A DNA stretch of 64,000 bases from Rhodopseudomonas palustris HaA2 (GTDB lineage: Bacteria > Pseudomonadota > Alphaproteobacteria > Rhizobiales > Xanthobacteraceae). Shown here in pieces: positions 46,971-52,572 of this stretch (position 1 is the stretch's first letter; each line of letters opens with the position of its first letter). Where the stretch lies: NCBI RefSeq assembly GCF_000013365.1, contig NC_007778.1, forward strand, positions 2,170,001-2,234,000, written 5' to 3'. Under the pieces are notes generated by a model. The model was not told the origin of the DNA and made no database searches. It saw nothing but the letters and a program-made list of their open reading frames with translations. The position numbers and the translations under genes are program-made.

Positions 46971-47325
46971 GAGCGGGGCGGTGGCTGGGATGGATATTCA
47001 TGTGTAGCGCGAGCGGAGGGCGGGACGCAAAGCAGGTTCTCTGGCGTGAGCTGGACCGTAGGGCGGGTTAGCCGAAGGCGTAACCCGCCGAGCGACTGAG
47101 CTTGTGCCGGAGAAAAGGCGGATGACGCTGCGCTGATCCGCCCGATGGGCTGCAGGACGCGCGGGTCACGCGAGGGTGGGTTGACCCAGATCGACCGCGA
47201 CGAGATCGGCGGGGCGACGCCGGCCCGTCGGATCGCTGCGACCTTCGGCGAGCGTGCACTCAGATCAATGCCGCGGCCGGCGGCCTTGCTAGGTTGCCGC
47301 CGCTGTCTCGGATTCGGAGGGTGTG
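46971..47325. other. intergenic region, repeat-bearing
   Basis: This 355-base gap lies between the divergent nucleotidyltransferase-like gene and the small exported gene. It contains a palindromic repeat at 47057-47148 (GTAGGGCGGGTTAGCC...). No gene was supported. Confidence 0.5.
47057..47148. repeat. GTAGGGCGGGTTA-type palindromic repeat, copy 1
   Basis: GTAGGGCGGGTTAGCCGAAG, then AACCCGCC, and later AGGCGGATGACGCTGCGCTG with GATCCGCC. Reverse complement of this order occurs at 50425-50504, so the two elements are inverted relative to each other. Confidence 0.7.
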
Positions 47326-47838
47326 ATGATCGCGCGTCGTCGTCTGTTTGGCTTGGCTGTCGCGCTGCCGGCGCTGGTCGCGGCGGCGCTGGCGCCGTCG
47401 TCCCCGGTGCGCGCCGGGGACGGGCTGGAGCCGTACGCGCCGCTTCTGGTCGAACTGCCGGGCTGGAAAGCCGGCAGGCTCGGCGGCATGGCGATGCAGG
47501 ACGGCGGCAGCCGGATTGTGGTGGTGCAGCGCGGCTACGCGCGCGGCGAGATCCATGTCAGCGTCCAGTTGCTCGCCGGCGCGCCGGCGCAGAGCCGGCT
47601 TGCGGCCGGCGGCACCGGGATGAAGACCGAAGCCAGCCACGGCCCGGCCACCACCGCGACCATCGACGGCTTCAAGCTGACGCGAACGTTTCAGGCCAGC
47701 GACAAGTCCGGCACCATCCTGATCGCCCTCGGCCCCGCCGCCGCGCTGTCGCTGGCGTTCAAGGGGCTGGGCGAAGACGAAGCGCTGGCGACGGCGAAGA
47801 GTTTTGACTGGAAGGCGATGCGGGCGGCGGTGAAGTAG
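47326..47838 (+). CDS. exported protein with Tat-like signal, unknown function
   Basis: The 170-residue exported protein has an N-terminal signal with adjacent arginines (MIARRRLFGLAVALPAL), similar to a Tat signal, and AGA-type cleavage near residue 31. The mature part has strands (RIVVVQRGYARGEIHVSVQLL, GTILIALGPAAALSLAF) and no known domain. GGAGG at 47316-47320 supports ATG 47326 over the GTG just before it. It lies directly upstream of the RAYT gene but the palindromes between them argue against an operon. Confidence 0.75.
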   Translation: MIARRRLFGLAVALPALVAAALAPSSPVRAGDGLEPYAPLLVELPGWKAGRLGGMAMQDGGSRIVVVQRGYARGEIHVSVQLLAGAPAQSRLAAGGTGMKTEASHGPATTATIDGFKLTRTFQASDKSGTILIALGPAAALSLAFKGLGEDEALATAKSFDWKAMRAAVK

Positions 47839-47901: not shown

Positions 47902-47938
47902 TGTAGGATGGGTTGAGCTCTTGCGAAACCCATCGCCG
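47902..47938. repeat. half REP element upstream of the RAYT gene
   Basis: GTAGGATGGGTTGAGCTCTTGCGAAACCCATCGCC is the reverse complement of the right arm of the full palindromes at 48492 and 49403. It lies just upstream of the transposase start. Confidence 0.8.
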
Positions 47939-47954
47939 CACCACGGGCCTTTCG

Positions 47955-48491
47955 ATGACGAATTATCGGCGTAACGCCATCGCCGGCGGCCGCTTCTTCT
48001 TCACCGTCAATCTCGCGGAGCGCCGGCTGCGGTTGCTGACCGATCACATCGATCTGTTGCGCGCTGCCTTTCGCGAGACGCGGCAGCGCCATCCGTTCGT
48101 GATCGATGCGATCGTGGTGTTGCCCGACCACCTTCATGCGGTCTGGACGCTCCCCGATGGCGATCGCGATTTCGCCGCGCGCTGGCGGCTGATCAAGGCT
48201 GCGTTCTCACGCGGCCTACCGACGGGCGAACGGATTTCCGAAAGCCGCGCGCGCAAAGCCGAACGCGGCATCTGGCAGCGGCGCTATTGGGAGCATACGC
48301 TTCGCGACGACGACGATCTCGCGAGGCATATCGACTACATTCATTTCAACCCTGTGAAACATGGCCACGTCGCCCGCGTCGCGGACTGGCCGCATTCCTC
48401 GTTTCATCGTATGGTCGCGCGCGGCGTCTATTCGATCGATTGGGCTGGCGACATGGACGCCCCAAGCGACGCGTTCGGCGAACGATCGTGA
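47955..48491 (+). CDS. REP-associated tyrosine transposase (RAYT, Y1_Tnp)
   Basis: The 178-residue TnpA_REP-type protein has an HUH-type metal site LPDHLHAVW (about residue 59-67) and catalytic Tyr in RHIDYIHFNPVKHG (about residue 130-143). The opening YRRNAIAGGRFFFTVNL and end WPHSSFHRMVARGVY are family hallmarks. RAYTs are domesticated transposases that nick and join single-stranded REP hairpins rather than move as insertion sequences. It is flanked on the left by a half REP element and on the right by a full palindromic one, matching this role. ATG 47955 gives the family start. The gene starts 16 nt after the left repeat. Confidence 0.93.
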   Translation: MTNYRRNAIAGGRFFFTVNLAERRLRLLTDHIDLLRAAFRETRQRHPFVIDAIVVLPDHLHAVWTLPDGDRDFAARWRLIKAAFSRGLPTGERISESRARKAERGIWQRRYWEHTLRDDDDLARHIDYIHFNPVKHGHVARVADWPHSSFHRMVARGVYSIDWAGDMDAPSDAFGERS

Positions 48492-48589
48492 AGCGCCGTA
48501 GGATGGGTTGAGCCCTTCGCGAAAACCATCATGATGTGCAGCGATCGGGGCGATGGGTTTCGCAAGAGCTCAACCCATCCTACGGGCTG
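48492..48589. repeat. REP/BIME palindrome, copy A
   Basis: A 98-base imperfect palindrome has arms GCCGTAGGATGGGTTGAGC and GCTCAACCCATCCTACGGGC with a central GATGTGCAGCGATCGGGG. It begins at the RAYT stop codon. Copy B at 49403-49500 has the same orientation and differs at a single base (GAAAACC versus GAAACCC). Confidence 0.92.
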
Positions 48590-48646
48590 GCGAACCACGC
48601 CGGCCGGCGATATCGAATTGAATGGAATTTATTGTCGGCCAGTGTG

Positions 48647-49201
48647 CTAGTAGGTGACAGCAAGTCCTTTCATCGTGTGCTTTTCGGTGGATCTCGATAT
48701 ACCGCCGAGGCCGCTTTCGGTTTCCTCGATTGTCTCATACTCATGAGTGAAGTCGATAACTCTGAGACCATGCGGTTTCAAAGAGGCGGGCAGCGCTTCT
48801 CGCATCCCCTCGAGCGACTGATTCCATTCGACAGAGATCGTATTGATCTTCTTGATAAGCGCCGACCAAAGGAAATCTGTAATATCTAGCGGCCGCTTAT
48901 CTCCAGCAGAGATCCGGCGTCTCAAGTCCTTGAGTAAGGAGTTGATGAAATCAGGATCGGTGCAAAGTGAAACGCCGGCCGCATAGGCGGCCTTCTCGCG
49001 AGACAGCTGCTCCTCCTGTTCTCGTCGTCTACGGAGCACGGCAGCTTCGACCCTGCGTGCTTCTTCTTGCCTACGTTTGATCTCGGCTTGCAGCTCAAGC
49101 TCACTCCATTCCGACGATCCCGACAAACGAGATTCTGTTGCTATCAAAGGAGCCGAATCTTGAGGGTCGACCGGTCTATTTCGTTTCCACCAGGCCACCA
49201 T
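48647..49201 (-). CDS. hypothetical protein in the REP-bounded interval
   Basis: The 184-residue soluble protein is visibly richer in A/T than its neighbours. A Glu/Arg-rich coiled coil (about 35-75, IKRRQEEARRVEAAVLRRRR) precedes a mixed region containing FINSLLKDLRRRISAGD and WNQSLEGMREALPASLKPHG. AAGGGG precedes the ATG. No family recognised. It lies wholly between two near-identical REP palindromes, and its composition suggests recent acquisition. Confidence 0.75.
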   Translation of the reverse strand: MVAWWKRNRPVDPQDSAPLIATESRLSGSSEWSELELQAEIKRRQEEARRVEAAVLRRRREQEEQLSREKAAYAAGVSLCTDPDFINSLLKDLRRRISAGDKRPLDITDFLWSALIKKINTISVEWNQSLEGMREALPASLKPHGLRVIDFTHEYETIEETESGLGGISRSTEKHTMKGLAVTY

Positions 49202-49782
49202 TGCACCCCTTGGAGATTTGTAGCGAACGGACCGTATTGTAAGTGGTTTCGTTTTGAAAGAGAGTCAAACGCTCGATGGTAATATTGTAGTTAGCGAGTC
49301 TACCAAAGACCAAAAAACAAAGGGCAGCACTTCAACCGGAATGGTTGGTGCGCGAAAACAGGATGTCCGGCAGGGCCACCGCCTTTTCGAATAGCTGCCT
49401 CCAGCGCCGTAGGATGGGTTGAGCCCTTCGCGAAACCCATCATGATGTGCAGCGATCGGGGCGATGGGTTTCGCAAGAGCTCAACCCATCCTACGGGCTG
49501 ACGACAGTGCGTTACATTCGACGAAATGTGGCTGAGTTGCACGCTGTCTTATGATGCCGGAGAAGAGAGAATGAGTGGAGTTTGGCAGCGATGCGCATGG
49601 TACGATGTTGTGTCATGGAAAAATCCACATCTGATCTCTTGCATTGTTTCTAAGGGTATTGAATCATCACTAACTGATCGATCAACCAAGGCTGTACGAT
49701 AATCCTTGTCGCTGTTTATTTCTTCGCTGAATGTGATTGAAGTCTCGTTCGTGCGTCCAAAGCAAAGTGGAGCATTGTTGAG
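49202..49782. other. intergenic region with REP copy and AT-rich sequence
   Basis: A 581-base stretch, much of it AT-richer than the window average. It contains the second REP palindrome (49403-49500) and short open frames such as 49572-49703 (43 codons, start near GAGAAGAGAGA) that I do not call. No promoter motif is clear. Confidence 0.5.
49403..49500. repeat. REP/BIME palindrome, copy B
   Basis: A 98-base palindrome identical to copy A (48492-48589) except for one base, in the same orientation. Together with copy A it brackets the gene at 48647-49201. Confidence 0.92.
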
Positions 49783-49944
49783 ATGGGCAAGGAAGAGGAA
49801 TTATCTAATAGCAATGTGAGCCGACTAAATGAGGGTTTAGATTTATCGAAAATAGAGAAACAGGGAGAATCTGAGACGGTTCTGAAGCCGGCAATTCACG
49901 GCGCGGCGAAGGGGGTAGCATTGGCTTGGCTGTTGGTCGAATAA
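49783..49944 (+). CDS. very small AT-rich orphan ORF
   Basis: The 53-codon frame begins MGKEEELSNSNVSRLNEG and ends with a hydrophobic GAAKGVALAWLLVE. TGGAG lies about 10 bases upstream. It directly precedes another AT-rich orphan gene by 39 nt. Composition is unlike the rest of the window. Could be part of an acquired pair, but shortness makes it uncertain. Confidence 0.4.
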   Translation: MGKEEELSNSNVSRLNEGLDLSKIEKQGESETVLKPAIHGAAKGVALAWLLVE

Positions 49945-49983
49945 TTAGCAAGATTCTAAAATAGTCATGGGGTCGATAGGGCA

Positions 49984-50346
49984 ATGGCGAAGTTCTTCCA
50001 CTACAAGGGCACCGTTTATGGGGGCGCGATCCGACGGGAGAAAAGCGGAAACGCAATCTACAAAGTGACCTCATTCTTCCTGCAGCGAGGCGGGAACCTC
50101 AGCGACACCGAGATAACGCTTTGGGGCTACCAAGTCCCTATAGCTAACGGTCAGGAGGTAGCTGTCGTGTATGGCAAGGCAAACAACAAAGATAGTGGCC
50201 CCCCGTTGTTCTATTACAACTACAACTTGCGAAAAGGAATCAAATTTACTGACAACATAAAGAAATTAAACCGTCAAGAATCCGGATGGCTAAGTTACGA
50301 TACTCACGTTGATAGAGAGTTAGATGCGTACTTGAAGAATATCTGA
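49984..50346 (+). CDS. AT-rich orphan protein, unknown function
   Basis: The 120-residue soluble protein is rich in Tyr, Asn and Lys (FFHYKGTVYGGAIRREKSGN, LFYYNYNLRKGIKFTDNIKK). It has strand-rich character and no recognised domain. Codon use differs strongly from neighbouring genes, pointing to transfer. GGTCGATAGGGCA precedes the ATG at 49984. The upstream mini-ORF at 49783 may share its transcript. A palindromic repeat follows at 50425. Confidence 0.75.
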   Translation: MAKFFHYKGTVYGGAIRREKSGNAIYKVTSFFLQRGGNLSDTEITLWGYQVPIANGQEVAVVYGKANNKDSGPPLFYYNYNLRKGIKFTDNIKKLNRQESGWLSYDTHVDRELDAYLKNI

Positions 50347-50424
50347 AAGAGGATCAGTCATGTCATGTGACTTTCATTCTTTGGACATACTGTGTGTGCA
50401 GTGAGAGTAAGGAACTGACAGCCC

Positions 50425-50504
50425 GTAGGGCGGATTAGCGCAGCGTAATCCGCCGACTGATCGCGTGGAAGAGGCGGGTTACGCCTTCGGCTAACCCGCC
50501 CTAC
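50425..50504. repeat. GTAGGGCGGATTA-type palindromic repeat, copy 2
   Basis: GTAGGGCGGATTAGCGCAGC ... GGCGGGTTACGCCTTCGGC then TAACCCGCCCTAC. The element is the inverted counterpart of that at 47057-47148. Confidence 0.75.
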
Positions 50505-50523
50505 AGGTGTCATTAACAAAACA

Positions 50524-50610: not shown

Positions 50611-52572
<1,962 letters not shown>

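Follow-up and report, generated by a model that had tools for sequence, protein, structure and literature searches.

A RAYT gene and its REPINs beside thiC

The window analysed here is a stretch of 64,000 nucleotides from the genome of Rhodopseudomonas palustris HaA2 (NC_007778.1, positions 2,170,001 to 2,234,000 of the forward strand), and coordinates refer to it. Rhodopseudomonas genomes are designated G000, G001 and so on. The locus comprises a gene for a REP-associated tyrosine transposase (RAYT), two nearly identical direct repeats, a low-GC stretch and a conserved right anchor, presumably thiC, a name that we base on its sequence and on the adjacent thiE/thiG-like ORFs. The features are as follows.

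47054..47153, minus strand: REPIN-II-like element to the left of gene 47323-47838 (comparison with relatives)
47903..47937, plus strand: lone REP-I unit preceding the RAYT gene, GTAGGATGGGTTGAGCTCTTGCGAAACCCATC... (complementarity to the REPIN right arms)
47955..48491, plus strand: RAYT/TnpAREP of 178 aa with an HLHAVW HUH motif (NCBIfam, PDB, orthologues)
48492..48588, plus strand: REPIN-I copy A, 97-nt hairpin (fold z score; homology to G003 stops at 48588)
48589..50419, no strand: species-specific low-GC stretch from copy A to the thiC-side REPIN-II (composition, blastn)
48647..49201, minus strand: orphan 184-aa gene of no known family, with predicted long helices and a C-terminal beta-hairpin
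49403..49499, plus strand: REPIN-I copy B, within the low-GC stretch (differs from copy A at one base; matches the RAYT-side REPIN of G010 exactly)
49984..50346, plus strand: second orphan ORF of 120 aa, GC 0.47, to the right of copy B (no family match)
50420..50507, plus strand: REPIN-II of the GTAGGGCGGATTAGC type, right edge of the variable stretch, adjoining thiC (homology to relatives resumes at AGCCCGTAG)
50611..52551, minus strand: presumed thiC (C-terminal part in genus genomes)

The product of gene 47955-48491 matches the RAYT profile NF047646 of NCBIfam (E = 2e-60, 202.9 bits for a cutoff of 80), and its residues 1 to 168 align with the solved TnpArep structure 4er8 (E = 3e-51). Together with the HLHAVW motif, these matches place it in the Y1/HUH family of REP-associated transposases. 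It is the only RAYT of this genome, and orthologues of 92 to 95% identity occupy the same site in G003, G010 and G001. REP sequences flank the gene on both sides, with the single unit upstream and copy A downstream, the latter beginning at the base right after the stop codon. Its activity on these REPINs is putative.

An earlier note on this DNA had reported two 98-base direct repeats at 48492-48589 (copy A) and 49403-49500 (copy B), spaced by 911 bases from start to start and differing at one base. All of this was confirmed, the single difference lying at 48525, where copy A has A and copy B has C. The 5,331,656-base genome contains no further full copy and has REP-like matches at two other places; other Rhodopseudomonas species harbor many related copies. 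The note had overlooked the inverted REP pairs within the copies, the third unit at 47903-47937, the RAYT gene and the continuation of the low-GC zone past copy B.

Each copy is an inverted pair of GTAG-type REP units, with GTAGG at its start, CCTAC at its end and 22-nt arms that are 95% complementary. In both, the 97-nt unit AGCGCCGTAGG...CCTACGGGCT folds into one long hairpin, with a predicted energy of -36.7 kcal/mol for copy A (z -10.3) and -39.5 kcal/mol for copy B (z -10.7); none of 200 shuffles was as good in either case, and the mismatch in copy A weakens the hairpin by about 3 kcal/mol. The upstream unit 47903-47937 is perfectly complementary (100%) to copy B's right arm, its complementarity to the right arm of copy A is 93% over 43 nt, and a REP-I unit is found at the equivalent place in G003, G010 and G001. 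With two inverted GTAG-tagged REP units forming a single hairpin, both copies are REPINs, in all likelihood of the group that belongs to the neighboring RAYT. We ruled out an insertion sequence or transposon with target-site duplications because the repeats are hairpins that match the REPs of the RAYT. The proposal that the repeats define a mobile unit is not supported in this respect, as they are non-autonomous RAYT hairpins rather than terminal repeats or target-site duplications.

The repeats and the RAYT belong to a known kind of system. REPIN clusters next to RAYTs have been described in Pseudomonas fluorescens (Bertels and Rainey 2011, PMC3116915), and the present locus resembles them in its inverted REP doublets of about 100 nt that form hairpins beside a RAYT gene, in the clustering of several REPINs at the RAYT and in the existence of a cognate REP type for each RAYT; here, however, the second copy borders an orphan gene. 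The REPtron/TnpAREP system of Escherichia coli (PMC8266576; 4er8) is similar in having an alignable transposase, GTAG-tagged REPs and C|T at the outer ends of the REPINs of the locus, whereas the system described here is alphaproteobacterial, with a different REP stem and a putative activity. GTAG-type REPs of R. palustris strains, including HaA2, are listed in the available part of a published catalogue (PMC3733652), which describes neither the RAYT-thiC locus nor its orphan gene and mentions no breaks at the ends of REPINs.

The bracketed gene and the low-GC stretch

As the earlier note had stated, one AT-richer gene (48647-49201) lies between the repeats, with a GC content of 0.53 compared with 0.63 to 0.72 in its neighbors. 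When the 813-base segment was shuffled 1000 times, a stop-free run as long as this 184-aa ORF arose in only 5 of the shuffled sequences, so that it is probably a real gene. A ribosome-binding-like site, AAGGGG, precedes its ATG. It is absent from 15 other Rhodopseudomonas species, and no relative was found among about 390 other genomes of the family, in plasmids, phages or viral contigs, or in 84,980 species genomes scanned by pattern, a method that detects close relatives only. The 396 other genomes of the order yielded only short matches to a helical stretch of 64 to 69 residues (E about 1e-3 to 3e-3), which we took as coiled-coil noise, like a TrpC-like NCBIfam hit with an E value of 0.057. 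Nothing significant was found in Pfam, NCBIfam, PHROGs or PADLOC. We rejected the idea of a defense or phage gene, given the lack of a PADLOC hit and a single weak PHROG hit (E 0.01) in a helical region. A single-sequence structure model (pLDDT 78) consists of long helices and a C-terminal beta-hairpin. It has no fold match in the PDB at E <= 0.001, the top matches being ribosomal-protein chains with a TM score of about 0.2.

The gene was not found elsewhere between such repeats, whether in the genus, the family, the order, the species-genome scan, plasmids, phages or viral contigs. Similarly, the genomes searched contain neither a second location of the 911-base unit nor an empty/occupied pair, and the species compared provide no clean case of a site with one repeat and the same flanks but without the gene. 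We thus have no instance of the bracketed gene moving with the repeats as a unit, as a composite transposon or cassette would. Recombination between copies A and B could delete the 911-base segment, as the earlier note had proposed, and no such deletion was seen among the species compared.

The compositional anomaly is not delimited by the repeats. The low-GC zone, at about 0.39 to 0.57 in 200-base windows, passes copy B and runs to about position 50420, and apart from the REPIN copies the stretch 48589-50419 has no blastn match to relatives. The species-specific DNA thus includes copy B, which also argues against a mobile unit bounded by the two repeats. Past copy B, the 120-aa ORF has no match in Pfam, NCBIfam, PHROGs or PADLOC, and the 295 other family genomes searched contain no relative of it.

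The locus in other Rhodopseudomonas species

The C-terminal part of thiC is present in 15 of 16 genus genomes, at 92 to 100% identity, and the order of gene 47323-47838 (ORFX), RAYT and thiC is conserved in several species. Copy A has an orthologue in two of them, G003 and G010. Over 98 bases, copy B agrees at every position (100% identity) with the RAYT-side REPIN of G010, while the RAYT regions are 93% identical; at that level of identity, the probability of finding no difference in 98 bases by chance is about 0.0008 (0.93 to the power 98). REPIN identity is therefore no clock. To judge by these sequences, REPINs are constrained or homogenised, so the near-identity of copies A and B does not show that they are young, as had been concluded from it.

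The DNA to the right of copy A differs completely between species. This, and the absence of the 184-aa gene from all 15 other species, supports the claim that the segment is recombination-prone. In other species, the interval between the RAYT, or its REPIN, and thiC mostly contains different ORFs, many of them of low GC (0.45 to 0.54). Because nearly every relative has different short AT-rich genes at this intergenic site, we regard the 184-aa gene as probably an orphan passenger of a variable site, and not as a cargo set by the two repeats. Low-GC genes are also found at the thiC sites of G012, G014 and G015, which have no RAYT, whereas ten other RAYT loci of the genus, read over up to 1.5 kb on each side, have no separate low-GC passenger gene. 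Among the ORFs of these ten loci, lower GC (0.56 to 0.58) is confined to the RAYT itself, to those that overlap it and to one of 100 codons, and we therefore rejected the idea that RAYT loci generally carry low-GC passengers. The passengers thus follow the thiC site.

Several unrelated low-GC genes on the thiC side (L059, L062, L063, L064 and L067), all on the minus strand in the orientation of the window, take their stop codon from the TAG within the REPIN's GTAG, so that their products end in ..SP*; different genes therefore border on the same REPIN edge. In G011, a low-GC gene at the thiC site (L068:1694-2542) encodes a DUF6602 / PD-(D/E)xK NucC-like protein (Pfam 2e-24, PADLOC 3e-35), a hint that the variable site can hold defense genes. 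The same site of G004 has an AAA ATPase gene (L063:2698-3762; Pfam AAA, 1e-7) and a 401-aa ORF that looks transposase-like by eye.

The REPIN that adjoins thiC (fold z -4.7) is of another type. In G005, G006, G004, G008 and G002, a RAYT of about 62 to 64% identity lies on the same side of thiC, with REPs of the GTAGGGCGGATTAGC type; in G002 it is broken into two pieces. The REPIN-II elements at 47054-47153 and 50419-50507 are orphan REPINs, since this genome lacks their cognate RAYT lineage (about 62% identity), which occupies the same locus in other species.

The edges of the variable stretch coincide with REPIN ends. Among G000, G010 and G003, the homologous DNA breaks off at the GGGCT with which the RAYT-side REPIN ends (48588 in the window), and homology resumes at the AGCCCGTAG of the thiC-side REPIN-II (50420), with DNA in between that has no homology to that of the window. 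As this is the case in three species, the site is recombination-prone. The same sharp stop at the right edge of REPIN-II was observed between G006 and G015 and for most pairs among G004, G005, G007 and G011; in G005 and G007, homology picks up slightly further on. Small variable segments of E. coli, Staphylococcus aureus and Streptococcus pyogenes (PMC2884548) are likewise short, strain-specific and bounded by repeats, and some are linked to palindromic units. However, the repeats there are mostly under 30 bp, whereas the boundary here is the end of a RAYT-linked REPIN.

REPIN copies also multiply beside the RAYT in G010 and G001, some with a RAYT 3' tail. In these tandem units of RAYT 3' end and REPIN (L058, G010:C1:2204300-2208500; L060, G001:C40:1300-6300), the GGGC|T end of a REPIN is joined to a CT dinucleotide in the middle of the RAYT gene. 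Two of the joints are clear. The third, in G010, is unclear, as it has no CT in present RAYT-II genes, and thus two of three joints support C|T. From their sequence, the tandem units look like a fossil record of RAYT strand transfer.

At the RAYT-thiC locus, 18 of 27 REPIN right edges have the GGGCT end, and CT is found at +4/+5 in 20 of the 27, whereas at other places in the genus CT stands at the equal offset in only 9 of 35 dispersed REPINs of the group. We therefore dropped GGGCT as a general rule for REPIN ends and regard it as typical of the REPINs of the RAYT locus. One dispersed REPIN of G010 has no counterpart at the orthologous place in G000, and the flanks are too diverged for its exact ends to be read.

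Origin of copy B and of the variable DNA

The account that we consider highly probable combines a resident REPIN, a RAYT-derived second copy and an orphan gene in a variable low-GC site. Copy A is the REPIN that resides downstream of the RAYT and is passed on together with that locus. Copy B would most likely be a RAYT-mediated, or RAYT-initiated, copy of A placed a short distance downstream, which landed in, or arrived together with, horizontally acquired low-GC DNA that fills the variable RAYT-thiC interval. The 184-aa gene would be a passenger of that site, gained here rather than lost by all the other species, and bracketed because REPINs accumulate beside their transposase. Because the DNA flanking copy B has no homologue, no empty target site can be demonstrated for it. 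TnpAREP enzymes cleave at C|T in vitro (PMC8266576), which makes RAYT action a reasonable inference, with recombination between REPINs as its main rival.

Copy B could instead stem from a local duplication or from homologous recombination between REPINs. Such recombination may also have exchanged the variable DNA, incoming REPIN-ended DNA replacing the resident RAYT-thiC stretch without transposition, in agreement with the arrest and resumption of homology at REPIN edges in G000, G010 and G003; the length of copies A and B suffices for RecA. This mechanism does not explain, however, why REPIN ends in G010 and G001 are joined, at CT, to the middle of the RAYT gene, and no donor with the same cassette was found, so that we regard it as unlikely. 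A segmental duplication of the RAYT tail and its REPIN, followed by insertion of the low-GC gene between copies A and B, has a parallel in the tandem units of G010 and G001. However, the window has no RAYT 3' sequence ahead of copy B, and the identity of the two copies starts at the hairpin edge, AGCGCC, which makes such a duplication very doubtful. That copies A and B and the gene form a composite unit moved whole by the RAYT, like a miniature composite transposon, might be suspected from the arrangement of two direct REPINs around one gene with a RAYT next door, and from the presence of cassettes exactly between REPIN ends in three species. We nevertheless hold it to be highly improbable, because the gene lies between REPINs at no other site and in no other genome searched, low-GC genes occur at RAYT-less thiC sites and not, over the up to 1.5 kb read on each side, as separate passengers at the ten other RAYT loci, and the foreign DNA extends to the right of copy B.

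Placing the repeats in a known system removes a misleading clue, since nearly identical REPINs are no sign of a young mobile unit. The breakpoints at REPIN edges are the most interesting part of the case. Homology stops at the C|T of the same REPIN in several species and is followed by different DNA, usually with a low-GC gene, from which one might speculate that REPIN ends cut by the RAYT at C|T serve as joining points for swapping short foreign cassettes between RAYT and thiC. We consider this quite doubtful; if true, RAYTs would be domesticated enzymes that promote local gene turnover, beyond the copying of REPINs. In any event, one conserved locus of about 14 species provides a natural record of breaks at C|T REPIN ends, and as these breaks fall at the dinucleotide that TnpAREP cuts in vitro, the role of RAYTs in cells becomes testable in a laboratory phototroph.
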